Source: a virus. Taken from it: 64,000 bases of DNA. The notes under the pieces were generated by a model. It had not been told where the DNA came from. It saw only the letters and a list, made by a program, of their open reading frames with translations, and searched no databases. Made by a program: the position numbers and the translations under genes. This document shows, piece by piece, positions 8,738 to 34,620 of this stretch. The stretch spans positions 1 through 64,000 of IMG/VR virus record IMGVR_UViG_3300044617_000226; one strand, written 5' to 3'. The first letter of the stretch is position 1. Each line of letters begins with the position of its first letter.

Positions 8738-11635
8738 TTAAAATTTTCCGTTAGTATTTGCTTTAGGCGGAATGCCTGCTCTGCTTGTGAGCCAACTAAA
8801 CGCTTTTGCGTTCTTTTTGATACTATCAGGCTTCACATCTATAGTTAGTGCTGTTTTGAAGCGCGGATCATTTTTTTCTTTTTTGCTAGGGATATAACCG
8901 CTTGCTTCTACCACACTTTGTTCTTCTATATGAAATACTCTTCTTGCTTTGTCATCTAAATCACTAGGTTTAATAAGTTTAGCAGGTATTGTTTTTGCCT
9001 GAGACTTTATCGCTTTATGTAATCTATGATTGCCATCAAGTATCCAGTCTATCTGACCTTGCTTATCTAACATAACTAAAATGGGGAACTGGTTAGAGAC
9101 TGTTACTTGATTAATTCTTTCTATTTCTTTTGGGTTCCCGTCCCAATGAAGTAGTTTGCTTTTTAGATTATCGTTTATCGGAAGATCAATTTGGTTGATA
9201 TGTTTGGTTAATTCTAAAATATCCTGTAGTGTAACTTCCTCATCGCCGTCTGACCAACTTGTTTCGGCTCCGCCTTCTGCTACATCTTTCTTTATCTTAC
9301 TTAATTCATATATGACCTTGTCTCCCGCATCAGCACGGAAAGCACGGAAACCCCATGCCCTTGCATAACGCTGAACTAATCTATCATATAATGATGCACG
9401 ACTTTCACTATTCTGTTGTTGTTTTGCCCAGTTATCTTTGCTTGCTGAAAAGATTACTCTGTTAGGCTTGTACTTTTTAATGAATGTTTTTAAAGCACTT
9501 AGTACAGTAGCGAACACTCGTTGTGCGTCACCCTCACCTGTAACTTCTTGACTGTTGTTTCTGTAGAATTCAACATTCCATGCTTCTTCTTTTGTTCCTT
9601 GACTAAACCCCTTATTGAACATAATGCTTAGATAGTTACCATCATCCATTTTAGCATATGCGTCAACATCACCGTAATCACTCTTTTCCCACTTAAGTCT
9701 ATAGGGTTGGTCAAATGCTTCATTAACTTGCTGTTGTGCTTTATACCATTCCATAGCAATATCTGATAATTCTCTTGCGCCGAATGTTCTATAGGATTTT
9801 ATTTTATTTTCCAATTCTTGACTGAATGGTTTACCAATGAATGGTTTGAAATCAGGGCCGGCGGCATATTCCTTGCACTTCTGTCTAACTTTACTGCCAT
9901 CTGGATCATACTTTTGCCATATTCTATTGCTGGTCAATTCCATATCTATTTCGTCAAATAGCCACTGGGCAATACGAGCAGGAGTAACTACTTTTGATTC
10001 TTTACGATTAGCAATTGTCTTATGCTGTTTGATTATTCTTGGATCTAATACAACACCTTGTGTTGGCTCATTGTATGCGATCCAGCCATTGCCAGGATCA
10101 AATACGCTAGTAAAGCCTAATTCACGCAATACTTTATTCCAACGGATGATAGTAGTCTCGTCACCTTTGTTTAGCCTACTCAAACAATCATAGATATACC
10201 AATATGGTGTACCATCATAGTCACCATCTTCGTCTGCTTGTTGCATTATTTCAGGAGGACAATATTTACTCAATGCTTGTTTTAGTTTAGCACTATCAAC
10301 TTTGGTCTGCTGTGTCATTTGATTTGAACGGTCATATTGAAACAACTGAATGTAGGGCATGTTATCACCCCACGGCAAAGGTTTATTTCGTTTGATCTCG
10401 CCCAACGCATAATCTAATGGATAGAAATATATGCCCTTAGGTGTATCTTCGCTAACAGCCGGTTGTGGATTGACACCTAACTTAGGCTGACTAGTCATAC
10501 TGATAGCCCAGTTTTCAGGATCACTGATAGTTTTAGCAATAGATAATAATTCTTTCTTGCCAGACTCTTCTTTGACATTTTGTTCTGGATTACTTCTTGC
10601 TTCACCTACATTGTATGTAGGATCAACTTTCTGACGGGGCATTCCTTTAGGTTGCTTTGGATCAACTGGATCGATATCAGTCGTATCTAATCCTGTCTTC
10701 TTCAATGCTTGAATATATTGGTGTTCTAAATCTTCATCGCCGAATGATAATATCGTGCTGGGAGGCCCTTTACCAAAATCATGTTTGCCTAGACCTTTTA
10801 GATTGCTGATATGCTGACCTAACTTATACCAGTCATAGACATCACTAACATCAACTCTAACTGTGCCGGCGGGCATTGTTGGTGGAAACTCTGGCCCCGG
10901 TGGAGGCCCGTTTGGATCATAATCTTCTAAACTTAATTTCTCGCTACGCAATTCGTTTCGTAGGTCCCATAACTTCTGAATCAATCCTTGCTTACGCAAT
11001 GCCTTGAAGGCTAGATTCTCAGGACCAAACTCGCCGGTCTTTTCTAATCCTGCTTTGCGATATCGTTTTATGACATCTAATACTTTATCTACACGCTTGA
11101 GGCTTCGTGATTTGATCGCTAGTTCTAATAACTCGCCTAACTTCTCGTATTTTGCTTTAGTAGCAGATTGATCAAAGTTCGCTCTGCGCTTGACTGGCAT
11201 CTTGATCCAGTCTTTCTTTAATATACTATACTCACCTAAACTATGGTGTGGCTGATTGCTATCTTGAACATATAGTTCTACCGGGACACCATGTACTTTG
11301 ATATCGTGTGTATCATTGTATATGGTCTTTTTAGCATTGAACAGTTCTTTGTACACTTCGTCATCTGGTAGTTTGCTATGATCTACTAATATATGCAAGT
11401 CTAGATCGCTATGCGGAGTATATGAATATGCCGCATTGCTACCTGATATAGTGATGTCTTCTACTTTGAGGCTGCTTAACCCTAGATATGCCATGAAATC
11501 TTTGGCTATATCCATCAATCTCTCATACACTTCGGGATCTAGTTTACCCTTATCAGTCCATAGGGCAGGATTGAGTTTGTCATGAAACTTAACCGCGTCT
11601 GCTAACTTAAAACTCTCAAGTTCTTTAATGTCCAT
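8738..11635 (-). CDS. 965-aa multidomain protein: nucleotidyltransferase-like N-terminus, ParB/sulfiredoxin-like C-terminal segment
   Basis: Residues 60-90 (ISGSNAAYSYTPHSDLDLH) match the GS...DxD signature of the polymerase-beta-type nucleotidyltransferase fold, with G65-S66 and the metal aspartates D78 and D80. A helical region, a Pro/Gly linker (about 245-260) and two alpha/beta regions follow. Near the C-terminus, DGNHRLHKA (867-875) resembles the DGxHR motif of ParB/Srx-like domains. The last 60 residues (from GYIPSKKEK) form a basic tail. This looks like a fused phage protein, perhaps carried in the virion or acting on nucleic acid, but its activity is unknown. A CTAAATAC element and a terminator precede the start. 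Confidence 0.72.
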   Translation of the reverse strand: MDIKELESFKLADAVKFHDKLNPALWTDKGKLDPEVYERLMDIAKDFMAYLGLSSLKVEDITISGSNAAYSYTPHSDLDLHILVDHSKLPDDEVYKELFNAKKTIYNDTHDIKVHGVPVELYVQDSNQPHHSLGEYSILKKDWIKMPVKRRANFDQSATKAKYEKLGELLELAIKSRSLKRVDKVLDVIKRYRKAGLEKTGEFGPENLAFKALRKQGLIQKLWDLRNELRSEKLSLEDYDPNGPPPGPEFPPTMPAGTVRVDVSDVYDWYKLGQHISNLKGLGKHDFGKGPPSTILSFGDEDLEHQYIQALKKTGLDTTDIDPVDPKQPKGMPRQKVDPTYNVGEARSNPEQNVKEESGKKELLSIAKTISDPENWAISMTSQPKLGVNPQPAVSEDTPKGIYFYPLDYALGEIKRNKPLPWGDNMPYIQLFQYDRSNQMTQQTKVDSAKLKQALSKYCPPEIMQQADEDGDYDGTPYWYIYDCLSRLNKGDETTIIRWNKVLRELGFTSVFDPGNGWIAYNEPTQGVVLDPRIIKQHKTIANRKESKVVTPARIAQWLFDEIDMELTSNRIWQKYDPDGSKVRQKCKEYAAGPDFKPFIGKPFSQELENKIKSYRTFGARELSDIAMEWYKAQQQVNEAFDQPYRLKWEKSDYGDVDAYAKMDDGNYLSIMFNKGFSQGTKEEAWNVEFYRNNSQEVTGEGDAQRVFATVLSALKTFIKKYKPNRVIFSASKDNWAKQQQNSESRASLYDRLVQRYARAWGFRAFRADAGDKVIYELSKIKKDVAEGGAETSWSDGDEEVTLQDILELTKHINQIDLPINDNLKSKLLHWDGNPKEIERINQVTVSNQFPILVMLDKQGQIDWILDGNHRLHKAIKSQAKTIPAKLIKPSDLDDKARRVFHIEEQSVVEASGYIPSKKEKNDPRFKTALTIDVKPDSIKKNAKAFSWLTSRAGIPPKANTNGKF

Positions 11636-11649
11636 GCAAGTATTTAGTT

Positions 11650-11676
11650 AAAAAGAAAGGCCCCGAAAGGCCTTTC
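11650..11676 (-). terminator. Rho-independent terminator after the tmRNA
   Basis: On the minus strand, GAAAGGCC (11669-11676) and GGCCTTTC (11655-11662) pair over 8 bp around a 6-nt loop, followed by five T (11650-11654). It ends the transcript carrying the tmRNA coding piece and isolates the 965-aa gene. Confidence 0.9.
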
Positions 11677-11836
11677 CCGACTATTGGTTACAAGGTTGTC
11701 AACCCCGGCTTAGCCTCAAGCGGCTAGAGCGTATACGCTATCGTTTGCGTTTACTTTGTTTCGCTCTGATTACGTCAGTCGCCTCTCGGATCGTCCATTC
11801 CGTTACTCTTTGCCCTGTCGAAACCAGGTCCGGCCC
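11677..11836 (-). ncRNA. ssrA: Permuted two-piece tmRNA: coding piece (5' half, carries the tag frame)
   Basis: The 5' end at 11836 starts GGGCCGG, which pairs over 7 bp with CCGGTCC of the acceptor piece (11929-11935). Pair 3 is G-U, the alanine identity element. The D-like signature TGGTTTCGACAGG follows. The tag frame (11716-11748) reads ANDSVYALAA and stops with TGA inside a small stem (TAGCC with GGCTA). A second stem (GGTT with AACC) and the terminator follow. The coding half is transcribed after the acceptor half, so the gene is circularly permuted, as in alphaproteobacteria, cyanobacteria and some betaproteobacteria. The RNA would rescue stalled ribosomes with SmpB and tag proteins for proteolysis. 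The 3' end is approximate. Confidence 0.92.
11716..11748 (-). other. tmRNA proteolysis-tag reading frame (ANDSVYALAA)
   Basis: Ten codons from GCA at 11748 to the stop TGA at 11716-11718. The tag begins AND and ends ALAA, the usual start and ClpXP-recognised end of bacterial SsrA tags. The final codons and stop sit in a stem-loop, as in known tmRNAs. Confidence 0.92.
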
Positions 11837-11837
11837 A

Positions 11838-11912
11838 TCATAAAAGGACTATTGCAAAAACTAATAAAATCACACCTAGACCAAATAACCATTTTACTAT
11901 TTCGTCATTCAT
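11838..11912 (-). CDS. 24-codon membrane-peptide ORF inside the tmRNA intervening segment
   Basis: The 88 nt between the CCA end of the acceptor piece (11925) and the 5' end of the coding piece (11836) contain an ORF running from ATG 11912 to TGA at 11838-11840. It stops one base before the tmRNA 5' end. AAAGGG lies about 6 nt upstream of the ATG. The peptide starts MNDEIVKW and continues with about 16 hydrophobic residues (Leu, Val, Ile, Phe, Ala, Gly), so it would be one transmembrane helix with a charged N-terminus. The segment is normally removed during two-piece tmRNA maturation, so expression would have to come from the precursor or the excised fragment. The frame could be chance, but its fit to the segment and its composition are striking. 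Confidence 0.5.
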   Translation of the reverse strand: MNDEIVKWLFGLGVILLVFAIVLL

Positions 11913-11924
11913 ATAATCCCTTTA

Positions 11925-11984
11925 TGGTGGACCGGGCGGGAATCGAACCCGCGTCCAGAACACTTTTCTCTTCACTTCATACGA
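11925..11984 (-). ncRNA. ssrA: Permuted two-piece tmRNA: acceptor piece (3' half)
   Basis: On the minus strand the piece ends with GGACGCGGG, TTCGATT and CCCGC (T arm, 11936-11952), then CCGGTCC, A and an encoded CCA (11925-11927). GGACGCGGGTTCGA is a hallmark of tmRNA 3' halves. GTTCTG just before it can pair, with G-U pairs, with CAGGGC of the coding piece to start helix P2. The 5' boundary is not visible and could extend into the end of the 114-aa gene. It lies upstream in transcription of the coding piece, which is the permuted order. Confidence 0.88.
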
Positions 11985-12329
11985 TCATAATTCTTTACAA
12001 GTTCTTTCCTTGTAAATCTTTCCATCTTCAGTAATAATTTCTTTCCATTCAGTGCAAACTTGTCTCTTTTGTTGTTTATCTTCTTTGTCTTTTGCGTTAG
12101 CATCTGCAATAACCGCACCAAGAATAACACCGCCCACTAGTGGTGCAACCCAATTATCATTGTGACGGTGAATTATAACAGGAACATGATGGCGATGCCC
12201 ATGTAAATAGTGATGTCTATGATGATTATGTGAATGGCCATGATGTGCTCCATGACCTCCATGTGCATAGGTTGAAGTAGATGCTAATGCTAACATAAAT
12301 CCCAAGACAGTTGCTAATAATGTTTTCAT
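11985..12329 (-). CDS. Secreted histidine-rich protein, 114 aa
   Basis: The N-terminus is a typical Sec signal peptide (MKTLLATVLGFMLALASTS, predicted cleavage after TYA). The mature protein starts with about 35 residues of which roughly half are His (patterns HGGHGAHHGH and HHRHH), then a Gly-rich hydrophobic stretch (GGVILGAVIADANA), and ends with two Cys 18 residues apart that could form a disulfide. It probably works in the host periplasm and may bind metal ions. Similar small exported proteins occur in bacterial genomes, so host origin is possible. GGAG precedes the ATG. The stop lies next to the tmRNA acceptor piece, and the two may share a transcript. Confidence 0.8.
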   Translation of the reverse strand: MKTLLATVLGFMLALASTSTYAHGGHGAHHGHSHNHHRHHYLHGHRHHVPVIIHRHNDNWVAPLVGGVILGAVIADANAKDKEDKQQKRQVCTEWKEIITEDGKIYKERTCKEL

Positions 12330-12573: not shown

Positions 12574-13605
12574 TTACACATACAATCCTTCTAACAAACT
12601 AGGATCATCTATTATATTCTGTATCTCTATATTGTTCAAGTTGGGTCTGCATGGCTGACACAACTTAGTATTGATCTTGTTATAGATTTCATGATGTCTG
12701 TCGCTCAACCAATATTTTCTAAAATCATCACCGTGCCATGGGCCCAATTTAAAGTTAGGGTTTCCTCTATTCTCGCAACATAGATAAACAAAGCCATCAG
12801 CACAAAAGACAGGAAACTGAAACATCTGATGACATCTTTTGTAGTTTCGTTCTAGATGCTTAGTCTTGTTCACTTTATAGTTGACCGAATATTTTTTGCT
12901 TATAACTTCAATGTTGTTTAATAATTCATCGGTCAACGCAAACAATTGATCGTTGACGATCACCGGTCTAAAATAGACCATCCTAACCCCTATCTTTTTA
13001 GAAGTCTCAAATATGCTTTCTAGTTCACTAACAGTTGAGTTATGTTCAGTCAACAACACTTTGAAGTCTACCTTCACACCGATCTCTACTAAATTTTTAG
13101 CATTCGTCAATACACGATTGAACAGACTGGTTCTTGTCAAACTTTGCCTTATCAGTTCATATGTCTCTTCATTGCCAGCATCGATATCGATTCCTACCCA
13201 GGCTAGTTGTCGTAGTTTGTTGACACTCACTTTATCTATTAACGCTTCTAATTTGCTACCGTTCGTAGTGATGCTTGCTAAGAAACCCGAATCAATAGTG
13301 TGTTCGATCACTTTTTCATAACCAGGCAATATAGTTGGTTCTCCACCGCCCGGATAACTTATGCTATGTAATGTTCCGTAACTATTAGGTTTATAACTAC
13401 GCCAACTTGCAAGTTGGTCTAACAAAGTTATGTAGTCATTATATTTCTTTTGTACAGGCTCGGCTGCTCTAAAATCAGCACTATTACAATAAAAGCAATT
13501 TTGATTGCAAATGTTAGTGAGATCGATATCCACATGCGCAGGCATTATGGCATGAGTATCTTTGTGCCTCATCCAATGAACGATCTCAGCGTTATTATAT
13601 TTCAT
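12574..13605 (-). CDS. Radical SAM protein with C-terminal SPASM/twitch-like cysteines
   Basis: A 343-aa radical SAM enzyme with CNQNCFYC (Cx3Cx2C; C33, C37, C40) to bind the [4Fe-4S] cluster that cleaves S-adenosylmethionine. PGGGEPT is the GGE motif for SAM. A C-terminal cysteine set (FPVFCADGFVYLCCENRG, then CQPC near residue 320) fits an auxiliary SPASM/twitch cluster. This is the conventional order, unlike the eight N-terminal-twitch paralogues at 25.3-36.2 kb. The ATG is 1 nt after the speD-like stop (TGAAATG). SPASM enzymes commonly modify peptides or carbohydrates. The substrate is unknown here. Confidence 0.9.
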   Translation of the reverse strand: MKYNNAEIVHWMRHKDTHAIMPAHVDIDLTNICNQNCFYCNSADFRAAEPVQKKYNDYITLLDQLASWRSYKPNSYGTLHSISYPGGGEPTILPGYEKVIEHTIDSGFLASITTNGSKLEALIDKVSVNKLRQLAWVGIDIDAGNEETYELIRQSLTRTSLFNRVLTNAKNLVEIGVKVDFKVLLTEHNSTVSELESIFETSKKIGVRMVYFRPVIVNDQLFALTDELLNNIEVISKKYSVNYKVNKTKHLERNYKRCHQMFQFPVFCADGFVYLCCENRGNPNFKLGPWHGDDFRKYWLSDRHHEIYNKINTKLCQPCRPNLNNIEIQNIIDDPSLLEGLYV

Positions 13606-13606
13606 T

Positions 13607-13981
13607 TCATTTTAGTGGTAGTTCGCTTAATCCATTCTCGCGGTCAAGATATTTCATCTCGACCTTAGTTGGCTCAAACTCTTGTATAGCATTAACTACA
13701 TCATATGGATCTAGGTTACCACAAGTGTAAACATCTAGTTGCATTAATGCAGGATCATCCTCATCCCATACATGCAATGCGATATGACTTGTCTCTATGA
13801 TCGCTACGCATGTCAATCCGCGATTACCTTTGACATCAAGATATTTCGCATAGGGCCCCATCATCAACTTCATACCTATCTTTTCAATCAACTCACCCAT
13901 CCAGATTTTAACTGTTGCTTCCGCTTTAGGGGGATTTTTTATCTCAGCACGAACAATAAGATGCTTGTGGAAAACGGCCAT
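13607..13981 (-). CDS. speD: S-adenosylmethionine decarboxylase-like protein (SpeD family)
   Basis: At 124 aa it has the size of the short bacterial SpeD proenzyme. The motif IETSHIALHVWDE holds Ser65 (future pyruvoyl group) and His66, and DVYTCG holds the proton donor Cys87. Cleavage would be between Thr64 and Ser65, whereas classical family members cleave Glu-Ser. AdoMet decarboxylase makes decarboxylated SAM for spermidine synthesis. Some SpeD homologues are reported to act on arginine or ornithine instead, so the substrate is open. It lies between the repeat protein and a radical SAM gene, separated by 1-13 nt. Since radical SAM enzymes also use SAM, the context is notable, but a functional link is not established. 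Confidence 0.87.
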   Translation of the reverse strand: MAVFHKHLIVRAEIKNPPKAEATVKIWMGELIEKIGMKLMMGPYAKYLDVKGNRGLTCVAIIETSHIALHVWDEDDPALMQLDVYTCGNLDPYDVVNAIQEFEPTKVEMKYLDRENGLSELPLK

Positions 13982-13994
13982 TAGTGTAGTTACC

Positions 13995-16900
13995 TCATGT
14001 ATATTTCTTTCTATAATAATCTTGTAGCCAGGACCATTCGTAAGATTTCTTCAATTCTTCGATATCACCACTGACTTCATTGTAGTATTCTACAGCATCC
14101 TTAGCGCCCTGTATACAATTTTCGGCATACATGCCTTCGCCTACTGTAGTCCATATATTTAATCGTTCTGCAGCCATGTCACTATAATCGCTCTTTAACT
14201 TGATCACTTCGCGGAACGCTGTGCGCCATGCGGCATAAGGGTCTGTATTGAAGTTTGCGACTCCTGATAACATATCCACGCTCTCATGCGGATCATCTAA
14301 TGTGAAGTCAAGGCCCATGCCCTTGTTATTCAATGTTAACTTCTTATTGTATGCGATCATCGCTTGATGACCATAAGTAAGACCATTCACAGGATTCTTG
14401 GCTGTAAAGATATAGTGCTTAGGTATCTGCAATCTGTCAGGTTGCCAGTTCCAATCGAACTGTTCATTGACCTTGAGTTTAGCAAACACCGTGAACATCC
14501 ATGGTGTATTGCTTGCTTGAGCCGCGGCATGATATGCAGCCACGCGACCATTCACACCATCTACCCTCACTACCTTGTTGGGTAGATTCTTAGTGATCTT
14601 GACTAGATGTTGATAATTTTCTTCTGCGCACTTCTCACCGTTACTCAAAAACACGATGTCTAATGGCTTTGATCTGGCTACTCGCTTAGACTTAGTTATA
14701 TAAGGATAATCATATAACTCATTATCCACATATAGTTTCGCTTCTTTTGGCAAGGCAAGAATCGTGCCACCTGTGCTTAATATCTCAATATTCTTGGTAT
14801 GATCTGCCCATAAACTCACGGGCTCGTCATAGTTGACGACTATATCACTATTGTCCTTAGTCTTGAATATAGCATAGGGGAAATCATAATCTTGCTTGAC
14901 TGCATTGATATTCGTATCTTCGTCTATCACAAACTCAGGAGCAGGTAGTCTCTTAGGTCTCATATGATTATTATAATTGATCTTATCATAATCTTCTAAG
15001 AGATTCATGTCATCGACCAAACTCTTTAGTTTGTTGACATCGACTAAGAATGTGTCCCCAAACTTCTGCTTATCGCTAGGGAACACATGCAAATTTTCTT
15101 TAGCGAATGGATCGCAGATATATGTCACATCAAAGTTTTTATAGTCACAGACTGAACTACATACCCAGATATAATTCTCTTTATTCGGTTTGACCTTTGC
15201 CAATATGTCTTTGAATGTATCGAGGTAACTCTTTCTATATGGCACTGTGAATACATTCTTTCCTGTGGCTTTAGACAATAACTGTTCTTTAATCTTGTCT
15301 GTCTCACTGTTGCCATGGTCGATCAGATAGATATCGTACAAGCAGTTAGTCGCTTTGGCACTACGGTTCTTGACAAAGTTTAGATTGCTAAGATGCTCTA
15401 TGATCTTGATATACTTGGTATCTTCTGGGAAAGTTTCTTTGTTCAATAGATATGTGGTTCCCCAATGGCTCCACTGAGTGCCAAATATATGAACCATCTT
15501 CATCTGCCAAGGATTAGGATAATACTTGAAATCAAAATTACTATAATCTAATTCGCTGTTGAGTATCCATGCTAACTCAGTGGTGCTTCTATTCAAGCAA
15601 CGGTATATCGTATCTACCCAACTGTTCAGATATCTAGTCTTTTGTATGTTAGGGAATCGTTCTTGTAATCTCTCAAATCTTTCTTTAGATTCAATGTTGC
15701 CGCGATCAATCATAAACATATCAGGTTGTATGAACAACTCAGCAAGATATTCGTTCTCTGCTTTTATGTCGCCAGTAACGAAATTGTACTGCGTGAATCC
15801 TTGCTTATAGAGTTTGCTATTGACGAAATATGTCTGTGTCTCTTTTGCTTCGGGACTACCGAATACATGAACGAATCGTGCTTGTTCGATATTAGGACGC
15901 CAGCTGAAATTGAAACTGCTGTAATTGATGTTCTTATTCAATGCCCAGAACAATTCGTCACTATGTTGATCGATCAAATCTTCTAATGTAGTCTGTATGT
16001 AATATTTAGGAATCTCTACGAACTCGTCATCGTGCTTTTTAGTCACACGCAACAACTTTACAGCCTCTCCATTGTTCTTTTTAGGAACATAGAGAGGGCC
16101 ATCTTCGTCATTCAATAATGTACCGAACTGATAGATGTAAGGTGGGCTACCGGGATTAGGTCTCCAGCTAAAGTCGAAATCTTTAATGTCGATATCTTTA
16201 GGTATCATCCAGTTAGTCATATCGCTAGCGACTTCTGCTATGATGTCGTTGACATATTTTCTTTCTGTAGCACCTTCTACAACATATTCTAATGTTGGTT
16301 CTACTTCAGAACTATTCCACTGATTACCGAACACATAGATATATGGAGGGCTAGTGGGGTCTGGACGCCAACTATAATCAAAGTTTCCCCTAACTTTGAT
16401 CAATTCACGCCACTTACTATAATCAGGTAATACATTTGCTACTTGCGTCATATATTTGCGCTGTGTAGCATTCTTGACATGATATTCTAATGTAGGTTCT
16501 ATCTCAGCATTATTCCATTGATTGCCGAACACATAGATATAAGGATCATCGTGTGGATCAGGTACCCAACTATAGTCAAAACTTGTTCTGTCTACTGGTA
16601 TGATCTCTGTGAATCTGTCATAGTTTTGCGCTAATGATGCTTTGAGAGTGTTATCATACTTGTAGTCCGTACCACCGCTGACTCTATACAATACTGTAGG
16701 CATTTTTTCTGCTGGATACTGCGTGTTGCCGAAAGCATAGATATATGGATCTTCTTTAGGATTAGGTCTCCAACTAAAATCAAAACTCTCTTCTACGATA
16801 GGATGTAGTATCTTAAAGTTTTTCTTGTCAGGTAACACATGTGCTATGATGTCTTCTACATATTTGTATTCTGTAGCACCCGGCACGACATATTCTAATG

Positions 16901-19900
16901 TATGTTCTAGTGTTGCTTTATTCCATTGATTACCGAACACATAGATATAAGGAGGTGCTTTAGGATCAGGCACCCAACCAAAGTCGAATTTGTTCTTATC
17001 TACTGGTATCTTTTCTACCCAATTAGTCATGTTATTTGCTAACTTGGCTTTGATATCATCTACATATTTGATCTCTGTAGCGTTCTCTACAGCATAGCGA
17101 ACGGTAGGCATGACTTCGCCGGGATACTGATTGTTACCAAACACATATATGAATGGATCATCGTATGGGTCTGGTCTCCAACTGAAGTCGAACTCATTTT
17201 CAACTATAGGCAATAGTATCTCAAATTTTGATTTGTCTTGCGCTACCTTACCTATGATATCATGAACATACTTGTATTCTGTAGCACCTGCTACATGATA
17301 TTCAACAGTAGGTTCTTTCTCAGCACGGTTCCACTGATTACCGAACACATAGATATAAGGTGGTGCCTCTGGATGAGGTACCCAACTGAAATCAAAACTA
17401 TCAGGTTCTAATCTGATCTTTACTTTGAAATTCTTATTGTTAGGTAATGTCTTTGCTTCTATCTCTTTGATATATTTCTTTTGTGTAGCATTCTTAGTTT
17501 TGTATATAGGTCCGCCCACATCGTTCCATACAGTAGCGAACTCATAATCATATGGTTCTTCTGTGCTATCTGGATGCCAACTAAAATCGAAACTATCTTG
17601 ATCTATGTTACTAGGTATGAACCAGTTTTCTTTATTAGGTAACTTAGTGACTTTTTGTATGTCTACATATTTTGTTTCGGTAGCATTCTCTACGACATAT
17701 CTAGGGCCATCAGTCTTTTGATGCTGTGTGCCGAACTCATAGATATATGCCGATTCAGTATCATCGGGATGCCAACTAAAGTCAAACTTGCTAATATCAA
17801 CATCTATAGGCACTTGCCAATTACTATGGTCGGGCTTTCTAACTGCTCGTTGGCTGTCTACATACTTTGTCTCAGTCGCACCTGCCACGACATATCTAGG
17901 ACCACCTGTCTTCTGCCACTGTGTGCCGAACTGATAGATGTAAGGGGGACTGCCTGGATCAGGAACCCAACTAAAGTCAAAAGACTTTGTATCTATGTTA
18001 TCAGGTATTTGCCAGTTAGTCATGTTGATGTCTAATCTAGCAACAACATCATTGATATACTTGATTTCTGTAGCGCCGGGAGTCACATATCTTATAGTAG
18101 GCATCACTTCAGCAGGATACTGATTATTACCGAACACATAGATATATGGTTCTTCTGTATTATCGGGGTGCCAACTAAAATCAAAACTCTTTATTTTGAT
18201 ATCAGACAACTGCCAGTGTTGTTGAGTAGGACTGGCTTTGACCTTATCACTATGCATGTATTTTGTTTCAGTGGCTCCTTCTACTATATACTTAGGTCCA
18301 CCGTTCTTTTGCCACTGAGTATTGAATTCATAAATGTAGGATTGATCATGCGGATTAGGTATCCAACTATAATCGAATTCATTATCATCGATATTATCAG
18401 GTACTATCCAATTAGTCTTGTTTTGTTCTAATTCAGCAACGATGTCTGTTATATACTTTTCTTTAGTCGCGCCTTCTACCCTATATTCTATAGTAGGCAT
18501 CTGTCTAGCATCGTGGTGCTGATTACCAAACACATAGATGTATGGTTCTTCTGTATTGTCTGGATGCCAACTATAGTCAAAACTCTTTATCTTATAATCA
18601 GAAACGACATGCCAGTTTTTATTAGTAGGTAATGCTTTTATTTTGTCTGAAATCATATACTTGACTTCAGTAGCGTTAGGCATCTCATATCTAATACCGC
18701 AATTCTTTTGCCATTGAGTATTGAACTCATATATGTATGGAGGATCGTGCGGATTAGGGATCCAGTCGAAATCAAAATCTTCTACTGCTATATTATCAGG
18801 TACTACCCAATATTCACGGCTGTTAGTGATAGTCGCTATGATATCATGTACATATTTGATCTTGCTTGCGCCTGGCACATGATACTCAACTGTCGCCATG
18901 ATCTCGGCACTGTAATATTGATTGCCAAACACATAGATGTATGGTTCTTCTGTATCATCTGGATGCCAACTAAAATCAAAATCTTTTATGTTAATACCTT
19001 CTGGTATCTTCCAGTTATTTGTAGTAGGCAACGCAGTAGTTTGTTGCTCACTGATGAATTTGATTTCTGTAGCATTCTCTACAATATACTTAGGACCGCC
19101 TGTCTTTTGCCATTGTGTGCTAAATTGATAGATATATGGAGGATCATTAGGGTTAGGCTCCCAACTGAAATCAAAATCTTTAGTATCAATGTTGTCAGGT
19201 ATAGACCAATTAGTCATATCTGCAAGCCTGGTGACTCTATCAGGCATGTATTTGTATTCTGTTGCACCTTCTACTATAAACTGTACACTGATCTTGTCTT
19301 CAGGTTTATTCCACTGATTGCCCCATGCATAGATATAGGGAGGCGCACCTGGATCAGGACGCCATGTGTAATCCATGTCAGAGCATTTTTCAAATACATC
19401 AAATATCTTACTGTTGGAACTTAGTTTGACATGCCATGCATTGTCGATATACTTTCTATCAGTAGCGCCGTCTACATGAAATTCTATAGTAGGCATCTCT
19501 TCAGCAGAGTAATGCTGATTGCCCCATACATAGATATAAGGTGGGTTGGTAGGATCAGGAATCCATGACCAATCAAAAGTATTCTCGTCAATATCTTGTA
19601 ATATCTTATAATTGTTTTTGTTAGGCTTTAACTCTACAAATTTTTCCATGTATTTGTAGTCTGTCGCCCCGGGAACACGATATTCTATCGCAGGCTTATG
19701 CGTAGCAGGGAAATATCTACAGCCCCATGCATAGATATAGGGAGGATCTGTAGGATCTGGGTGCCAACTGAAATCAAACAGACTCTCTTCAACATCATAA
19801 TTCAATACCCAATTATTTGACCTATCTTCAGTTCTTACTAATTCAGGTACATCTTGTCTGTATATCGTATTGCCGCCAGTATTTTTAGCGCACAACCAAG

Positions 19901-20141
19901 TACCGCTATCTTTGTTATGCTGACTGGGCCATACATTATCATGCTCGCCTGTCCATACTTGATCGTCCGGCAAGAATTCAAAATCAAAGTCCCAATCAAA
20001 ACCTGCATAGTCACAAAACTCGTTGACTATCCAAAAATGTTCAGTGGTGGCTAATGCTCTCGCTTCTTCGAGGTTTTTAGCATATCGCTCTAGTGGGTGA
20101 ACATTGGGTTTTTTGCCGAAGTAGAATACATCTCGTATCAT
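13995..20141 (-). CDS. 2048-aa repeat protein with C-terminal degenerate glycosyltransferase-like domain
   Basis: Residues 1-115 form a diverged first domain. From residue 122 to about 1320, nineteen units of 60-70 aa follow, each with FDFSWxPDPxxPPYIYxFG and ending in GATExKYV. Two unit types occur: a long one (FGNQWNxAExEPTLEY) and a short one (FGTQWQKTGGPKY). Three or more degenerate units continue to about 1700. The last 290 residues are clearly related to the glycosyltransferase-like protein at 36186-37139 (shared RVDGVxG, AINGLxYG and AWRxxFRE patterns), but its DGD motif is replaced by FAK. The C-terminal domain itself contains a FDWNWQPD segment resembling the repeat core, so units may have arisen by duplication from it. 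No signal peptide is present. It may be a scaffold, a multi-site binding protein or a modification substrate. Confidence 0.85.
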   Translation of the reverse strand: MIRDVFYFGKKPNVHPLERYAKNLEEARALATTEHFWIVNEFCDYAGFDWDFDFEFLPDDQVWTGEHDNVWPSQHNKDSGTWLCAKNTGGNTIYRQDVPELVRTEDRSNNWVLNYDVEESLFDFSWHPDPTDPPYIYAWGCRYFPATHKPAIEYRVPGATDYKYMEKFVELKPNKNNYKILQDIDENTFDWSWIPDPTNPPYIYVWGNQHYSAEEMPTIEFHVDGATDRKYIDNAWHVKLSSNSKIFDVFEKCSDMDYTWRPDPGAPPYIYAWGNQWNKPEDKISVQFIVEGATEYKYMPDRVTRLADMTNWSIPDNIDTKDFDFSWEPNPNDPPYIYQFSTQWQKTGGPKYIVENATEIKFISEQQTTALPTTNNWKIPEGINIKDFDFSWHPDDTEEPYIYVFGNQYYSAEIMATVEYHVPGASKIKYVHDIIATITNSREYWVVPDNIAVEDFDFDWIPNPHDPPYIYEFNTQWQKNCGIRYEMPNATEVKYMISDKIKALPTNKNWHVVSDYKIKSFDYSWHPDNTEEPYIYVFGNQHHDARQMPTIEYRVEGATKEKYITDIVAELEQNKTNWIVPDNIDDNEFDYSWIPNPHDQSYIYEFNTQWQKNGGPKYIVEGATETKYMHSDKVKASPTQQHWQLSDIKIKSFDFSWHPDNTEEPYIYVFGNNQYPAEVMPTIRYVTPGATEIKYINDVVARLDINMTNWQIPDNIDTKSFDFSWVPDPGSPPYIYQFGTQWQKTGGPRYVVAGATETKYVDSQRAVRKPDHSNWQVPIDVDISKFDFSWHPDDTESAYIYEFGTQHQKTDGPRYVVENATETKYVDIQKVTKLPNKENWFIPSNIDQDSFDFSWHPDSTEEPYDYEFATVWNDVGGPIYKTKNATQKKYIKEIEAKTLPNNKNFKVKIRLEPDSFDFSWVPHPEAPPYIYVFGNQWNRAEKEPTVEYHVAGATEYKYVHDIIGKVAQDKSKFEILLPIVENEFDFSWRPDPYDDPFIYVFGNNQYPGEVMPTVRYAVENATEIKYVDDIKAKLANNMTNWVEKIPVDKNKFDFGWVPDPKAPPYIYVFGNQWNKATLEHTLEYVVPGATEYKYVEDIIAHVLPDKKNFKILHPIVEESFDFSWRPNPKEDPYIYAFGNTQYPAEKMPTVLYRVSGGTDYKYDNTLKASLAQNYDRFTEIIPVDRTSFDYSWVPDPHDDPYIYVFGNQWNNAEIEPTLEYHVKNATQRKYMTQVANVLPDYSKWRELIKVRGNFDYSWRPDPTSPPYIYVFGNQWNSSEVEPTLEYVVEGATERKYVNDIIAEVASDMTNWMIPKDIDIKDFDFSWRPNPGSPPYIYQFGTLLNDEDGPLYVPKKNNGEAVKLLRVTKKHDDEFVEIPKYYIQTTLEDLIDQHSDELFWALNKNINYSSFNFSWRPNIEQARFVHVFGSPEAKETQTYFVNSKLYKQGFTQYNFVTGDIKAENEYLAELFIQPDMFMIDRGNIESKERFERLQERFPNIQKTRYLNSWVDTIYRCLNRSTTELAWILNSELDYSNFDFKYYPNPWQMKMVHIFGTQWSHWGTTYLLNKETFPEDTKYIKIIEHLSNLNFVKNRSAKATNCLYDIYLIDHGNSETDKIKEQLLSKATGKNVFTVPYRKSYLDTFKDILAKVKPNKENYIWVCSSVCDYKNFDVTYICDPFAKENLHVFPSDKQKFGDTFLVDVNKLKSLVDDMNLLEDYDKINYNNHMRPKRLPAPEFVIDEDTNINAVKQDYDFPYAIFKTKDNSDIVVNYDEPVSLWADHTKNIEILSTGGTILALPKEAKLYVDNELYDYPYITKSKRVARSKPLDIVFLSNGEKCAEENYQHLVKITKNLPNKVVRVDGVNGRVAAYHAAAQASNTPWMFTVFAKLKVNEQFDWNWQPDRLQIPKHYIFTAKNPVNGLTYGHQAMIAYNKKLTLNNKGMGLDFTLDDPHESVDMLSGVANFNTDPYAAWRTAFREVIKLKSDYSDMAAERLNIWTTVGEGMYAENCIQGAKDAVEYYNEVSGDIEELKKSYEWSWLQDYYRKKYT
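16120..19778 (-). repeat. Tandem coding repeats, about 190-200 bp period
   Basis: Roughly nineteen in-frame units within the 2048-aa gene. Each unit encodes the FDFSW/PYIY/GATE pattern. DNA identity between units is partial, so they are old duplications kept as protein repeats, not fresh tandem copies. Confidence 0.85.
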
Positions 20142-20149
20142 GCATTTAC

Positions 20150-21631
20150 TTATGAAATGACTTTAAGGTTATAAAGTTTTTCAAAGCGATCGGCATCCAT
20201 TCTATCGTTGACCATAGGTTCCCCGCGTATGTTCAAACTTGTGTTCAACAACATGGGGCATCCAGTCTTATCATACCATGCTTCTAGTAACTGTCGTATC
20301 CCAGATCCATCTTTTGCAACTGTCTGTACACGACTGGTATTGTCGTGATGAACGATAGCAGGAAAAAAGTCAGGATGCCTGCACCTAGCGATGACTTGCA
20401 TATACCTACTATTACTGAAACCAGCAGGCATGTCAAAATAGTTATCAACATGCTCTTCCAAAATGACTGGAGCAAAGGGTCTGAACTTCTGTCTTCGTTT
20501 GATCTCATTGACTTTATCCTTTATCTCGGGTCCTCTTGGGTCAGCTAATAAACTACGATTGCCTAATGCGCGAGGCCCGAATTCTGCTCTTCCATTAGCA
20601 ACCCCTACCATCTTATTTTTCTTTAGTTCTTTGATGATCTTATCTACTGGATATGGCCCTTTGATGTCGTGACCTAAGAATGCATCAGTCCAGTTGATCT
20701 TTCTACCATAACCCAATGCGGCTGCGCCTAGGCTGTTACCTGCATCGCCCGGATTAGGCATTATCCATATGTTATTAAAATACTTACCTAATAGTCTATT
20801 TGCTAGACAGTTTAATGCTACGCCACCACCGTATACTAGATTTTTGCTAGAACCTAAACGAAAGGCTTTGTGCATGACTTTTTCTATTAGGGTCTCGCAT
20901 ACTAACTGTGCGCTAGACGCGATATCCATATCTTCTGCTTTGTCTAAGAAGTTATTTGGTTCTAAACCTATGTGTAGATTATGCCTGAAATCTAAGTCGA
21001 ATAGATTTTCTAGATAATGACTTACCATCCTATTAGCATGTTTAGGTTTACCGTATGCAGCCATACCCATGAGGATATATTCTTCTTCATTGGGCTTTAA
21101 TCCCACACGCTGTGTCATAGCACTATAGAATAGTCCTATGCTGTTGGGATATTTTTTGCTCCATAATTTAGTATAGTGGGCAGTACCATTCTTGTCATAA
21201 CATGCATCCCATATGCTGATGCAATCTAACTCACCTATAGCATCTATGATGACCACTGTAGCATGATCAAATGGACTAGTCTGAAACCCTGCCGCCGCAT
21301 GGCTCTTATGATGTGAATGTGTAGTGATAGGTTTGTCACCTAATAGATCGCATAGTTCAGGACCTATGATCTTCTTTGCGCTTAAAGAACTCATAGGTTG
21401 TCCCGCACGAAATTGTCTGAATGCTTTAAGCCAAGGCTTCTCATAATAATGCAATTCATAATTATATGTTGCATATGATAATGCATCTTTGATTATGCCT
21501 TCACACAAATCAGGATCATGCTTCTTTTTGCTATAGCGTTCGCTATGTCCAGCAAAGAGTATATTTCCGTTATCACTTATGACACTAATACCTGCATCGT
21601 GAAAGCCCGCGCTTATACCTATATAACTCAT
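20150..21631 (-). CDS. O-carbamoyltransferase, NodU/CmcH/TobZ family
   Basis: At 493 aa it is slightly shorter than typical family members. The N-terminal Kae1-like domain begins MSYIGISAGFHDAGISV and carries HSHHKSHAAAG, the histidines that bind the metal and carbamoyl-adenylate, then IDAIGE and NEEEYILMGMAAYG. The C-terminal domain has GRAEFGPRALGNRSLLADPR, the family hallmark. These enzymes transfer a carbamoyl group from carbamoyl phosphate, via carbamoyl-adenylate, to a hydroxyl, usually on a sugar. That places a decorated saccharide among the likely products of this block. The gene overlaps the SGNH-like gene before it by 4 nt and stands 8 nt from the repeat-protein gene. Confidence 0.93.
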   Translation of the reverse strand: MSYIGISAGFHDAGISVISDNGNILFAGHSERYSKKKHDPDLCEGIIKDALSYATYNYELHYYEKPWLKAFRQFRAGQPMSSLSAKKIIGPELCDLLGDKPITTHSHHKSHAAAGFQTSPFDHATVVIIDAIGELDCISIWDACYDKNGTAHYTKLWSKKYPNSIGLFYSAMTQRVGLKPNEEEYILMGMAAYGKPKHANRMVSHYLENLFDLDFRHNLHIGLEPNNFLDKAEDMDIASSAQLVCETLIEKVMHKAFRLGSSKNLVYGGGVALNCLANRLLGKYFNNIWIMPNPGDAGNSLGAAALGYGRKINWTDAFLGHDIKGPYPVDKIIKELKKNKMVGVANGRAEFGPRALGNRSLLADPRGPEIKDKVNEIKRRQKFRPFAPVILEEHVDNYFDMPAGFSNSRYMQVIARCRHPDFFPAIVHHDNTSRVQTVAKDGSGIRQLLEAWYDKTGCPMLLNTSLNIRGEPMVNDRMDADRFEKLYNLKVIS

Positions 21632-24560: not shown

Positions 24561-25342
24561 AAACTTTTAATCATTCCAATTTCTCGCTGAAAATCATATC
24601 CCATATCAACATAGCGTTGGGTTATATCTTTACTATATATAAAATCCCCATCTTTAAATAGATCCATCAACACATTTTTACCTTCAGCGAATCTATCCAA
24701 TATGATATCAGCAAGTATCCTATTATTTTCATCTGTAAGATGTGTGCTACGAACATCTCCATATCCGCCCATATCCATTTCTTTTTCTGTGACTTTAAAC
24801 AAATTATACAGGCAATCACTATGTCTATTGGAAAAATCTAATTCATTGCCGGCGTTATCGATAAAAGGTAATATATTTACTAATTTTATATTCTTGTCTT
24901 TACATATTTGATTAACATCATCAAACATCTTTTGCTGTACCCAAAAATTGAACTGAAAATCACATAAAAATTTATAACCTAATAATATCTGTACGATCTC
25001 AGACTGTTCTTCTGCATTGAATTTTTTAAATGTAGATGTTTTGTAGAATGTTTCAACATCTGGAAATCCACTAACTACAGCGTATCGGTGAGGCATAGTC
25101 TGTATCCTATGCACAAATGACCAACAAAATACAATATGGTCAAATCTATGATGATGATCTTTAAAACAAGTAAAAGCATGATTACTAGCACTACCGCTTA
25201 AACCATATGATGATACTTTATGTCCTTTAGACACGATATGCGCCATCCAACTTTCATCTGTTTTAAACTTTGACAATGGTGCAGATATATTTCTATCCGC
25301 ATAACTGTCGCCGAATACTCCTATATGCAACTTATCCATCAT
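24557..25342 (-). CDS. SGNH/GDSL-like hydrolase, 261 aa
   Basis: Block I FGDSYADR, block II YGLSGSASNHAF and a C-terminal DVRSTHLTDENN (Asp, His) identify the family. It starts by a 4-nt overlap with the last of the eight tandem radical SAM genes, and it overlaps the next SGNH gene by 4 nt. It is therefore co-translated with both. No export signal is present. Specificity is unknown. Confidence 0.82.
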   Translation of the reverse strand: MMDKLHIGVFGDSYADRNISAPLSKFKTDESWMAHIVSKGHKVSSYGLSGSASNHAFTCFKDHHHRFDHIVFCWSFVHRIQTMPHRYAVVSGFPDVETFYKTSTFKKFNAEEQSEIVQILLGYKFLCDFQFNFWVQQKMFDDVNQICKDKNIKLVNILPFIDNAGNELDFSNRHSDCLYNLFKVTEKEMDMGGYGDVRSTHLTDENNRILADIILDRFAEGKNVLMDLFKDGDFIYSKDITQRYVDMGYDFQREIGMIKSL

Positions 25343-26592
25343 TTAAGTCCTATATATTTTGCTAGATTGTCAGGTTTATTTCTGCGCTTAGTATACTGCT
25401 CAAAAAAGATGTCACTATCTCTACGCATCTCTGCCTGATTCTCTCTTATGAATCCTTCATCCAAAAACTTGATCAATCTATTACAATGCTCATGTTCTAT
25501 AGGTAATAGATCATCTTTGATAGTTTCATAAAATTTTGTATATTTGTTAATATAGAAATCTCGCTCACTTCTAGTCAAACAAGCAAAACCTTGAAACTCT
25601 GGTTTATCTACCATGTTGATAGATATATAAGGCTTGACTTTAGTTCGCTTTCTGATATCAATTATATCCAGATACATCTGATCTAATGACTGTAATGCTA
25701 TCGCGCTTACTGTGGTACTGATGCTAAACTCTTTGACTGTGCTATTACCCAGTCTTTCAATGTTCGTTAACCATTCACTATAAACCATACCTTCCCGTAT
25801 GAACTCGGCAGTCTCACCCGCACTTTCATTGCTGATGTTCATGCGTAAGTTATTCAATCCTTTGATTTTTTCAAAGAATCTATCCATTACTACTGGTTTC
25901 TGACATAGATTGCTGTGTATCACAGTCTCAATATTAGGATTGATTCTAGTCATCATAGCGAACAACTGAAACACTTCTTCATGCATCAATGGTTCACCTC
26001 CGCTTACACGGATGCTCTCAAGTCCGGACATGACTGTCTCAAACCACTTCCAGAACAATTCCATGTGAGGTGGCTTGATCATCTCGTTCAATTCAGCCAT
26101 GTCTTTCTGATAATGTCTACGATCATCAGTTTTGATGTTTGTATAGACACCATTGACTCTTATATCATTTATCCAACTAGTGCTAAATTGTGGACTGCAA
26201 TAACTACAGGCTAAGTTACAAGTATTATTGAATGCTAACTCTAATGCTTTGGGCTTGAATACGAAATTAGGATTCTTATAATCTTCAGCAGTCAAATGAT
26301 CTTTGAAACTTAAACTCTTTCTAGTTCTGTCGCTAGTCAATCCTAGATTTTCATAGCGCCAGCAACTATCACATGCAGGGGGTTGTTCGCCTGCTAACAT
26401 TCTTTTTTGTTGGTCGCGCTTTTCTGCTGGATTATAGAATGTATCTACTGTGTCACCTACTTGCAAGAAAGGGGTATAATGGCAACTGGCGATCTTGCCG
26501 CTATATACCCATATACTTGCCTCATGAAACTTAGCCAAACAGAATGTGGGGCTAGTCTCATCTCTGATTTTTAATAACTTATTCAATTCCAT
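25339..26592 (-). CDS. Radical SAM protein with N-terminal twitch domain, subtype A (array member 8)
   Basis: In this 417-aa protein an N-terminal four-Cys domain (C18, C37, C74, C77; pattern FCLAKF, SCHYTP, CDSCW) looks like a twitch/SPASM cluster placed before the core. The radical SAM core has CNLACSYC (C125, C129, C132) and SGGEPL. Subtype A features are SCHxxP in the twitch domain and CSPQFSTSW after the core cysteines. The C-terminal QYTKRRNK is a shorter form of the RR motif seen in other A members. Numbering follows transcription order, so this is the last of eight. It shares one base with the upstream gene's stop (TGATG). The substrate is unknown. Confidence 0.9.
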   Translation of the reverse strand: MELNKLLKIRDETSPTFCLAKFHEASIWVYSGKIASCHYTPFLQVGDTVDTFYNPAEKRDQQKRMLAGEQPPACDSCWRYENLGLTSDRTRKSLSFKDHLTAEDYKNPNFVFKPKALELAFNNTCNLACSYCSPQFSTSWINDIRVNGVYTNIKTDDRRHYQKDMAELNEMIKPPHMELFWKWFETVMSGLESIRVSGGEPLMHEEVFQLFAMMTRINPNIETVIHSNLCQKPVVMDRFFEKIKGLNNLRMNISNESAGETAEFIREGMVYSEWLTNIERLGNSTVKEFSISTTVSAIALQSLDQMYLDIIDIRKRTKVKPYISINMVDKPEFQGFACLTRSERDFYINKYTKFYETIKDDLLPIEHEHCNRLIKFLDEGFIRENQAEMRRDSDIFFEQYTKRRNKPDNLAKYIGLK

Positions 26593-27923
26593 CAGTAGTC
26601 AAACTCATCGTCTAATTTGTTATGTATCAGATAGTTTTTAATGTTGTTGTGTTCTGGATAGATAGTGAAAAAATCTTCTTCCCTTATCTCGTCTAATTTC
26701 TTCGTGATCTTGCTGAACATCTTTAAAGATTCATGCATGTTAGGAGCACGATCTAATTCAGAGTACATGAACTTTATAGCATTATCATATCTGTGTAATG
26801 TATTACTTATTGTGGAATATTGATCCTGGAACTTTTTGAGCCATTCCATCTGATCTAAAAACAATAATTCGATCTCACGCTTTTTCCACTCGGGTATGTT
26901 TTTAAGGTTATAATATGGTGGAGTATCTAATGGGTTAATCATTATATCGTCTGGTTTTATCAGACCCAATTCCACCCACTCTTTATGAAATTCTACTAGA
27001 TTATGCGCATTAGGCCAACTCAATGTGAAGCCGATATTAAAGTCTACATGAGGACATTCTTGCATCAACAACTTTCTGTTCTCAACTATAGTAGCCCATT
27101 CTGTTCCCTTGCGCCAGTATTCGCCCTTGCTATAACTTCCATCTAAACTAGCATTGATTTGTACTCTAGTAAACTTCTTCCAGTACTCTAATACATTGTC
27201 GAAACCCTTGAGTTTGAAGTTTGAGAAGTTAGTATTATATTGTAATGATACATCTAGTTTATCTAGTTCTATCAATCTGTCAAGCATCTTATAATGATCT
27301 TCTTGCATCAATGGTTCCCCGCCTGCGAAATAGATTAATTCTGCTGTTGCTAGGTGGGGTAATATCTCTTCTAGTGCATGAACCTCAGTCTTACCGGCAA
27401 ACTGAAAACCATTATCAGTATCCTTGAACTTATCGCTTGGATATAACTTTCTATTATCTCCTACCCAACTTGTGCTATAATAAGGCCCGCATGTTCTACA
27501 TCGTAGATTACATAAATTGTTGAATCTAACATCGATATAAAAAAGTTTATGCTCTGCAAGTGATCCGTCAGGTCTAGTATTTGCTACGATGTCTTGCACT
27601 ACCTTGTTGTCTTTGAAGAACCTGTCATTGTATGCATTATAAAACTGATCACCTATAGTATGACGATTATTGCATATCGCACAGTGGGGGTGTTTTTCCC
27701 CGCGCAAAAACTGCAATCGCATGTTTCTTGTCTCTTCGTTATTCCATATTTCTGCTAATGAGTTTTCTTTCAAATTGCCGATCTGTTGCTGGTTCTCATA
27801 ACCATAAACACAGCAAGGTTTGACATCACCTCTAGTTCCTACATGTTGATGTACCCATGGAAAGATGCAAAAAGTCTTGCTAGTCTTTGCCATCTCTAAT
27901 GGATTAAATTCTTGATCGCTCAT
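26592..27923 (-). CDS. Radical SAM protein with N-terminal twitch domain, subtype B (array member 7)
   Basis: A 443-aa protein. The N-terminal cysteines FCIFPWVHQH (C19), CC at 37-38 and CAIC (C81, C84) give a twitch-like domain of the PWxH/CC kind, my subtype B. The core has CNLRCRTC (C138, C142, C145) followed by GPYYSTSW, and AGGEPL for SAM. The C-terminal part ends with a KLDEIREEDFFTIYPEH segment shared in outline with array member 6. The start overlaps the previous gene by 20 nt. It probably carries two [4Fe-4S] clusters. The reaction is unassigned. Confidence 0.9.
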   Translation of the reverse strand: MSDQEFNPLEMAKTSKTFCIFPWVHQHVGTRGDVKPCCVYGYENQQQIGNLKENSLAEIWNNEETRNMRLQFLRGEKHPHCAICNNRHTIGDQFYNAYNDRFFKDNKVVQDIVANTRPDGSLAEHKLFYIDVRFNNLCNLRCRTCGPYYSTSWVGDNRKLYPSDKFKDTDNGFQFAGKTEVHALEEILPHLATAELIYFAGGEPLMQEDHYKMLDRLIELDKLDVSLQYNTNFSNFKLKGFDNVLEYWKKFTRVQINASLDGSYSKGEYWRKGTEWATIVENRKLLMQECPHVDFNIGFTLSWPNAHNLVEFHKEWVELGLIKPDDIMINPLDTPPYYNLKNIPEWKKREIELLFLDQMEWLKKFQDQYSTISNTLHRYDNAIKFMYSELDRAPNMHESLKMFSKITKKLDEIREEDFFTIYPEHNNIKNYLIHNKLDDEFDY

Positions 27924-29214: not shown

Positions 29215-29220
29215 GATGTA

Positions 29221-34613: not shown

Positions 34614-34620
34614 ATTATCC

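Follow-up and report, generated by a model that had tools for sequence, protein, structure and literature searches.

A phage-encoded permuted tmRNA gene of betaproteobacterial type with a putative micropeptide reading frame in its spacer

IMG/VR record IMGVR_UViG_3300044617_000226 is a linear viral contig of 78,988 bp, and the window analyzed here comprises its first 64,000 nucleotides. ARAGORN and the Rfam models identify an entire tmRNA gene of the circularly permuted, two-piece kind on the minus strand at 11646-11986. The ARAGORN prediction, a permuted tmRNA spanning 11625-12017(-) with the tag ANDSVYALAA, is the sole tRNA or tmRNA gene in the window, and two covariance models score far above chance. 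RF04321 (tmRNA_permuted) gives 139.8 bits over 11716-11986(-) (gathering threshold 47, E 3.5e-29), and RF01850 (beta_tmRNA) gives 135.9 bits over 11652-12034(-) (E 3.9e-43); the latter exceeds the subtype's gathering threshold of 84 bits, which assigns the gene to the betaproteobacterial subtype. The gene order is the one that a permuted two-piece tmRNA requires, with an acceptor half ending in an encoded CCA (11925-11927), a spacer, and a coding half whose first nucleotide is the G at 11836. The tag frame has a degradation-type C terminus ending in LAA, and downstream of it lies a terminator, at a site where relatives form other hairpins. Sigma-70-like sites were not clearly above shuffles in a promoter scan. 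Together these features support reading the gene as a phage-encoded, circularly permuted two-piece tmRNA of betaproteobacterial type, and its parts are listed in Table 1.

Table 1. Coordinates of the permuted tmRNA gene, its spacer and the adjoining genes in the window.
Feature	Position	Strand	Basis or remark
Permuted tmRNA core, both halves and spacer	11716..11986	-	RF04321; ARAGORN tmRNA*
Distal P2 helix, 5' strand GATCGT, acceptor half	11981..11986	-	Sequence, covariation
T arm of acceptor half, GCGGG TTCGATT CCCGC	11936..11952	-	Sequence; stem covaries, 40 phage sequences
Acceptor stem, 3' strand CCGGUCC + ACCA	11925..11935	-	Sequence
Intervening segment (spacer), 88 nt	11837..11924	-	Ends pair over 12 bp, leaving UGAU as 3' tail
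Shine-Dalgarno-like AAAGGG, 5' of spacer ORF, within spacer-closing helix	11918..11923	-	Sequence
Spacer ORF, 24 codons, MNDEIVKWLFGLGVILLVFAIVLL*, putative single-TM micropeptide	11838..11912	-	15 family variants, pN/pS 0.38
Acceptor stem, 5' strand GGGCCGG (G3-U70), start of coding half	11830..11836	-	Sequence, covariation
Distal P2 helix, 3' strand ACGATC, pairs with GATCGT	11789..11794	-	Covaries across phages
Tag reading frame ANDSVYALAA*	11716..11748	-	ARAGORN, sequence
Intrinsic terminator GGGAAAGGCCUUUCGGGGCCUUUCUUUUU	11646..11678	-	Fold -15.7 kcal/mol, z -3.2
965-aa gene, directly downstream of tmRNA	8738..11635	-	Conserved neighbour, synteny in relatives
114-aa His-rich ORF, signal-peptide-like N terminus, ends where acceptor half begins	11985..12329	-	Homologs in 7/80 related loci

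The initial annotation of this locus had proposed such a gene from the letters alone, and its anatomy holds up well. The CCA at 11925 and the start of the coding half at 11836, both on the minus strand, are where it placed them, and the gap between the halves is exactly 88 nt (11837-11924). We likewise recover the 7-bp pairing of CCGGUCC with GGGCCGG, G3-U70 included, the D-like signature TGGTTTCGACAGG and the tag at 11716-11748. The covariance-model and permuted-mode ARAGORN searches on which it had made the proposal depend both return the gene, at the scores and with the tag given above. Its interval of 11677-11984 is correctly located but slightly short, as P2 reaches 11986 and the terminator about 11646.

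Relatives were collected in viral contigs by the tag, by the 965-aa neighbour and later by T-arm sequence. Among 40 distinct sequences, pairing in the T stem and in the acceptor stem that joins the halves is complete (100% of 480 cells), with both-sided changes at eight of the 12 pairs, and all 40 keep the 7 bp with G3-U70. The covariation score is 0.477 vs. 0.090 for shuffled alignments, and slid registers are only 47-64% paired. The distal P2 helix, GATCGT/ACGATC in the window, occurs elsewhere as TGCTGT/ACAGCA, GACTGT/ACAGTC, and GGCTGT/ACAGCC, and its self-pairing beats swapped pairing (5.93 vs. 5.09 ± 0.10). G3-U70 is present in every one of the 173 viral permuted tmRNA genes that we parsed. 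The two halves are one gene. It has to be considered that integration or imprecise excision could have left this gene as an inert remnant of a host ssrA: ssrA is a frequent integration site of prophages and islands, and Buchholz et al. (PMC9004378) discuss this kind of origin for the phage genes. However, both halves, the tag, the CCA, and the terminator are intact, the pairing covaries without one broken pair in 40 sequences, and the record yields no PF00589 tyrosine integrase and hence no scar in the form of a truncated gene beside an integrase. The nearest relatives are also all phage genes, and the three bacterial betaproteobacterial-type genes compared lie far away in the tree. We regard a remnant as largely refuted and extremely improbable.

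The tag was also followed across these relatives. ANDSVYALAA is encoded by 23 codon strings, TCN and AGY serines among them, a diversity that is supportive only because the loci were picked by peptide. The loci found through the 965-aa neighbour carry ANDSVYALAA, ANDDVYALAA, ANDETFALAA, ANDSTYALAA, and VAANDNNVDLALAA. The possibility that the phage RNA is a decoy, titrating SmpB or alanyl-tRNA synthetase and blocking host trans-translation, draws on a proposal made for the tRNA-like-domain-only gene of mycobacteriophage DS6A and on the inhibition of endogenous tmRNA by the tRNA-like domain of tmRNA (PMC11915505 and PMC4131195). Set against this, the window gene has its full coding half and tag, and related phage tags change yet mostly keep an ALAA-type end, as expected if the tag is used; a decoy is accordingly rated very unlikely. 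SmpB was found neither in this record nor in 25 other tmRNA-bearing phage records, therefore the RNA, if working, must rely on host SmpB. Among divergent phage tmRNAs (L122-L186) ANDSVYALAA recurs many times with differing synonymous codons, and some phage permuted tmRNAs (L336-L454) have very long tags, such as ANADTFDFSAMSFTGNTVRGAANESRFALAA.

Comparing the tag with candidate host genomes, as the initial annotation had advised, gave no match: ANDSVYALAA was not found in about 665 bacterial genomes around a betaproteobacterial centre (300 of the order and 369 of the class). Matches to it in the genome collection were rejected as host tmRNAs, as almost all are conserved protein-coding sequence (...ANDSVYALAAG...). 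Permuted genes are themselves rare in the sampled bacteria of the likely host order and class, which offers a comparative handle on why phages carry them. Five passed the cut-off among 120 genomes of the order, one of which ARAGORN calls standard, while another comes from a genome with a standard gene as well, where it lies on a small contig; in the class, two of 143 genomes passed, one being the genome with the small-contig copy. A Herbaspirillum MAG (L209, G010 contig C138) has a permuted tmRNA on a 5.4-kb contig and a standard tmRNA elsewhere, and the permuted copy is probably phage or contaminant DNA.

Phage permuted tmRNAs are already known. Buchholz et al. (2022; PMC9004378) counted 53 two-piece tmRNAs among phage genomes collected in 2021, of which 50 are marine or aquatic, a 2025 tmRNA database lists 79 tmRNAs from bacteriophages, all forms included (PMC11915505), and we parsed 173 permuted ones in viral records. 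The initial annotation was right to call a phage-encoded permuted tmRNA, but not to expect it to be unusual; the unusual part of the locus is the spacer ORF, which that annotation lacked. The marine phages, phage Melnitz among them, likewise encode permuted tmRNA, however, the Melnitz gene is of alphaproteobacterial type with a glutamine riboswitch, and a spacer ORF is unmentioned in the portion of the report that we drew on (PMC9004378). Mycobacteriophages and Bacillus phage G also encode ssrA, with the permuted form unmentioned in the corresponding portion of that source (PMC4131195). Permuted tmRNAs above the Rfam threshold were found in Stenotrophomonas phages DLP6, Marzo, and QDWS359, in Xanthomonas phages X1 and Rb1, in Bordetella phage PHB04, and in Alcaligenes phage QDWS595. 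Stenotrophomonas, Xanthomonas, Bordetella, and Alcaligenes hosts are expected to have one-piece tmRNA. The window gene resembles RF04321 and RF01850 members in gene order, the 7-bp acceptor stem with G3-U70, T arm, P2, the ten-residue AND...ALAA tag, and the spacer-closing helix, but differs in having an 88-nt spacer with an ORF, where sampled bacterial spacers measure 4-57 nt.

The spacer reads TAAAGGGATTAT ATG...TTA TGA T, and by analogy with known two-piece tmRNA processing its 88 nt would be excised at maturation. It combines an open frame beyond chance with a predicted ribosome-binding site, and a single nucleotide separates the ORF stop from the coding half and its mature 5' end. This position was rejected as evidence by itself because TGAT often precedes the 5' G in ORF-less spacers as well and is seen in a bacterial spacer too. 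The spacer-closing helix was similarly rejected as a phage speciality: it covaries in phage spacers with an ORF, in those without one, and in bacterial spacers, and is therefore a general feature of permuted genes. In the window the helix buries the Shine-Dalgarno sequence and may also control translation.

The frequency of such ORFs was assessed in similarity clusters of phage spacers 80 nt or longer, by counting ATG-ORFs that start near the CCA and fill at least 70% of the spacer; the expectation came from dinucleotide shuffles and the reverse complement served as control. In the T-arm sample, which is ORF-blind in that its members were chosen regardless of spacer or tag, 16 of 36 clusters have a spacer-filling ORF vs. 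1.2 expected (Poisson p 3e-13), and in the sample collected by tag or neighbour the count is 8/28 vs. 0.94 expected (p 7e-6). The control yields ORFs in 1/36 and 0/28 clusters, respectively. Only spacers with such an ORF show strong predicted Shine-Dalgarno pairing: in the T-arm sample the median energy is -6.5 kcal/mol with an ORF vs. -0.9 kcal/mol without one. None of the 26 unique bacterial spacers (4-57 nt) reaches 80 nt, therefore none can carry an ORF of the window's size. The arrangement is found in many environmental phages and in none of the sampled bacteria; the tmRNAs of phage isolates examined have no spacer-filling ORF.

The window peptide belongs to a family of 15 distinct variants, all of 24 codons, a count that is not free of bias because the patterns used to retrieve eight of them extended from the CCA to the start of the ORF, the start included, although most of the ORF was free to vary. 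The ORF is under purifying selection, with a pN/pS of 0.38 over the 15 variants and 0.19 within the IGV subgroup. Differences at codon positions 1/2/3 number 727/327/1048, frame +1 is closed in 15/15 variants, and frame +2 is closed in 9/15. Two unrelated spacer ORFs are also under purifying selection, with a pN/pS of 0.31 for a 52-aa pair and 0.15 for a 65-aa pair. The 65-aa spacer protein has relatives in 33 viral loci, mostly outside any tmRNA, and in two of the 33 its gene closely precedes a tmRNA or tmRNA-like acceptor sequence. Members of this phage family of about 65 aa (MILEDLEYIFKPQVDEGT...PMLDSFQYAG...PRF; L455-L487) occupy tmRNA spacers in four contigs; in most of the remaining contigs they lie elsewhere. 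A transmembrane-like hydropathy stretch of 17 residues occurs in 22 of 34 distinct spacer peptides, so that most spacer-ORF peptides look transmembrane. A PHROGs search with eight spacer peptides gave weak matches only (best E 0.014), and tblastn with one family member against 50,697 phage records gave no match, with no cultured phage carrying the peptide found.

Could the tmRNA be real and working while its spacer ORF goes untranslated, the frame being open by chance or the spacer kept for RNA structure? The closing helix, covarying regardless of an ORF and in bacteria too, means that the spacer sequence is constrained by structure, and several long phage spacers have no ORF. Yet neither chance nor structure accounts well for the excess of ORFs over both dinucleotide shuffles and the reverse-complement control, for stronger Shine-Dalgarno pairing only where an ORF exists, for changes biased to third positions with low pN/pS, or for the homologs of the 65-aa spacer protein outside tmRNA. 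We consider an untranslated spacer ORF unlikely.

The spacer also has a history of its own. Between the window and locus L127, 86 of 88 spacer positions are identical vs. only 102 of 148 aligned positions of the coding half. The reverse is observed with L225, the nearest tmRNA relative, where stretches of the acceptor half are identical at 35/37 and 31/31 positions and the spacers are unrelated. These two comparisons indicate that the spacer moves independently of the rest of the gene, as a cassette passed between tmRNA bodies. The L225 spacer has no ORF, therefore the peptide is dispensable for the tmRNA.

Taken as a whole, the locus is probably a working phage permuted ssrA of betaproteobacterial type with a mobile, protein-coding micropeptide cassette nested in its spacer. 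Established tmRNA biology would have one transcript run through acceptor half, spacer, and coding half to its own terminator, after which host tRNA-processing enzymes (RNase P and those acting at the 3' end) would cut out the spacer and leave two RNAs joined by the acceptor stem and P2. The mature RNA would be charged with alanine, bound by host SmpB, and used to rescue stalled ribosomes, with the added ANDSVYALAA directing products to degradation by host proteases. The spacer would double as a tiny mRNA, in which a Shine-Dalgarno sequence just after the CCA leads into the 24-codon ORF for a putative single-pass membrane peptide, and such spacers are exchanged as cassettes among tmRNA genes. 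A more speculative extension, to which we give a rather low probability, is that micropeptide and tmRNA form one regulatory unit with feedback modelled on ArfA of E. coli. The UGA stop lies within the 4-nt unpaired tail beside the expected 5' processing site, and if the UGAU tail is trimmed, the excised spacer would become a nonstop mRNA and its peptide would be tagged. Spare trans-translation capacity would then lead to destruction of the peptide, whereas saturation would let it build up in the membrane.

Cargo in tmRNA genes has been described before, namely homing endonucleases in group I introns, and a tRNA-Ala and a repeat element in permuted spacers (PMC11915505). The window resembles these in holding an extra element in the non-mature part of the gene, but the element is a very small protein-coding gene, recurrent in phages and without intron or endonuclease. 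Searches of the open-access literature yielded no description of a permuted tmRNA whose spacer codes for protein, therefore the novelty of the spacer ORF is likely, though not proven. The spacer of two-piece tmRNA genes has so far been treated as waste. Should phages use it to encode membrane micropeptides and other small proteins, an entire category of small genes would have gone unnoticed, since frames this short are usually passed over by ORF callers and masked by RNA annotation. Ribosome rescue would then also be linked to membrane-peptide production during infection.

The wider setting marks the contig as viral. A baseplate wedge protein is related to those of RaK2-like and Atu_ph07-like jumbo phages, therefore the 78,988-bp record is probably a fragment. 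Homologs of the 965-aa gene have a permuted tmRNA upstream in 27 loci, a count that includes some contigs twice; the 965-aa neighbour itself has no PDB match and matches only unknown PHROGs, and synteny with the upstream radical-SAM gene is not conserved. Two giant ORFs are also present: one of 6216 aa at 42181-60831(-) adjoins the baseplate wedge gene and matches only the E1_FCCH domain in Pfam, and the other, of 2048 aa (13995-20141), drew no hit from either Pfam or PHROGs. Upstream of the tmRNA lies a COG2908 RNA motif (RF02939; 12513-12557(-), 59.7 bits), also present in the related phage contigs L277 (2236-2280) and L225 (3216-3260), at 73.0 and 71.9 bits. Seven radical-SAM-like ORFs of 417, 443, 430, 392, 465, 513, and 521 aa, most of which match radical SAM profiles, run along 25339-36186(-). 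A further radical SAM gene (12574-13605(-)), an S-adenosylmethionine decarboxylase (13607-13981(-)), and a Nol-like carbamoyltransferase (20150-21631(-)) are also encoded, and together these genes make up a cluster that is unusually dense and biosynthesis-like for a phage.
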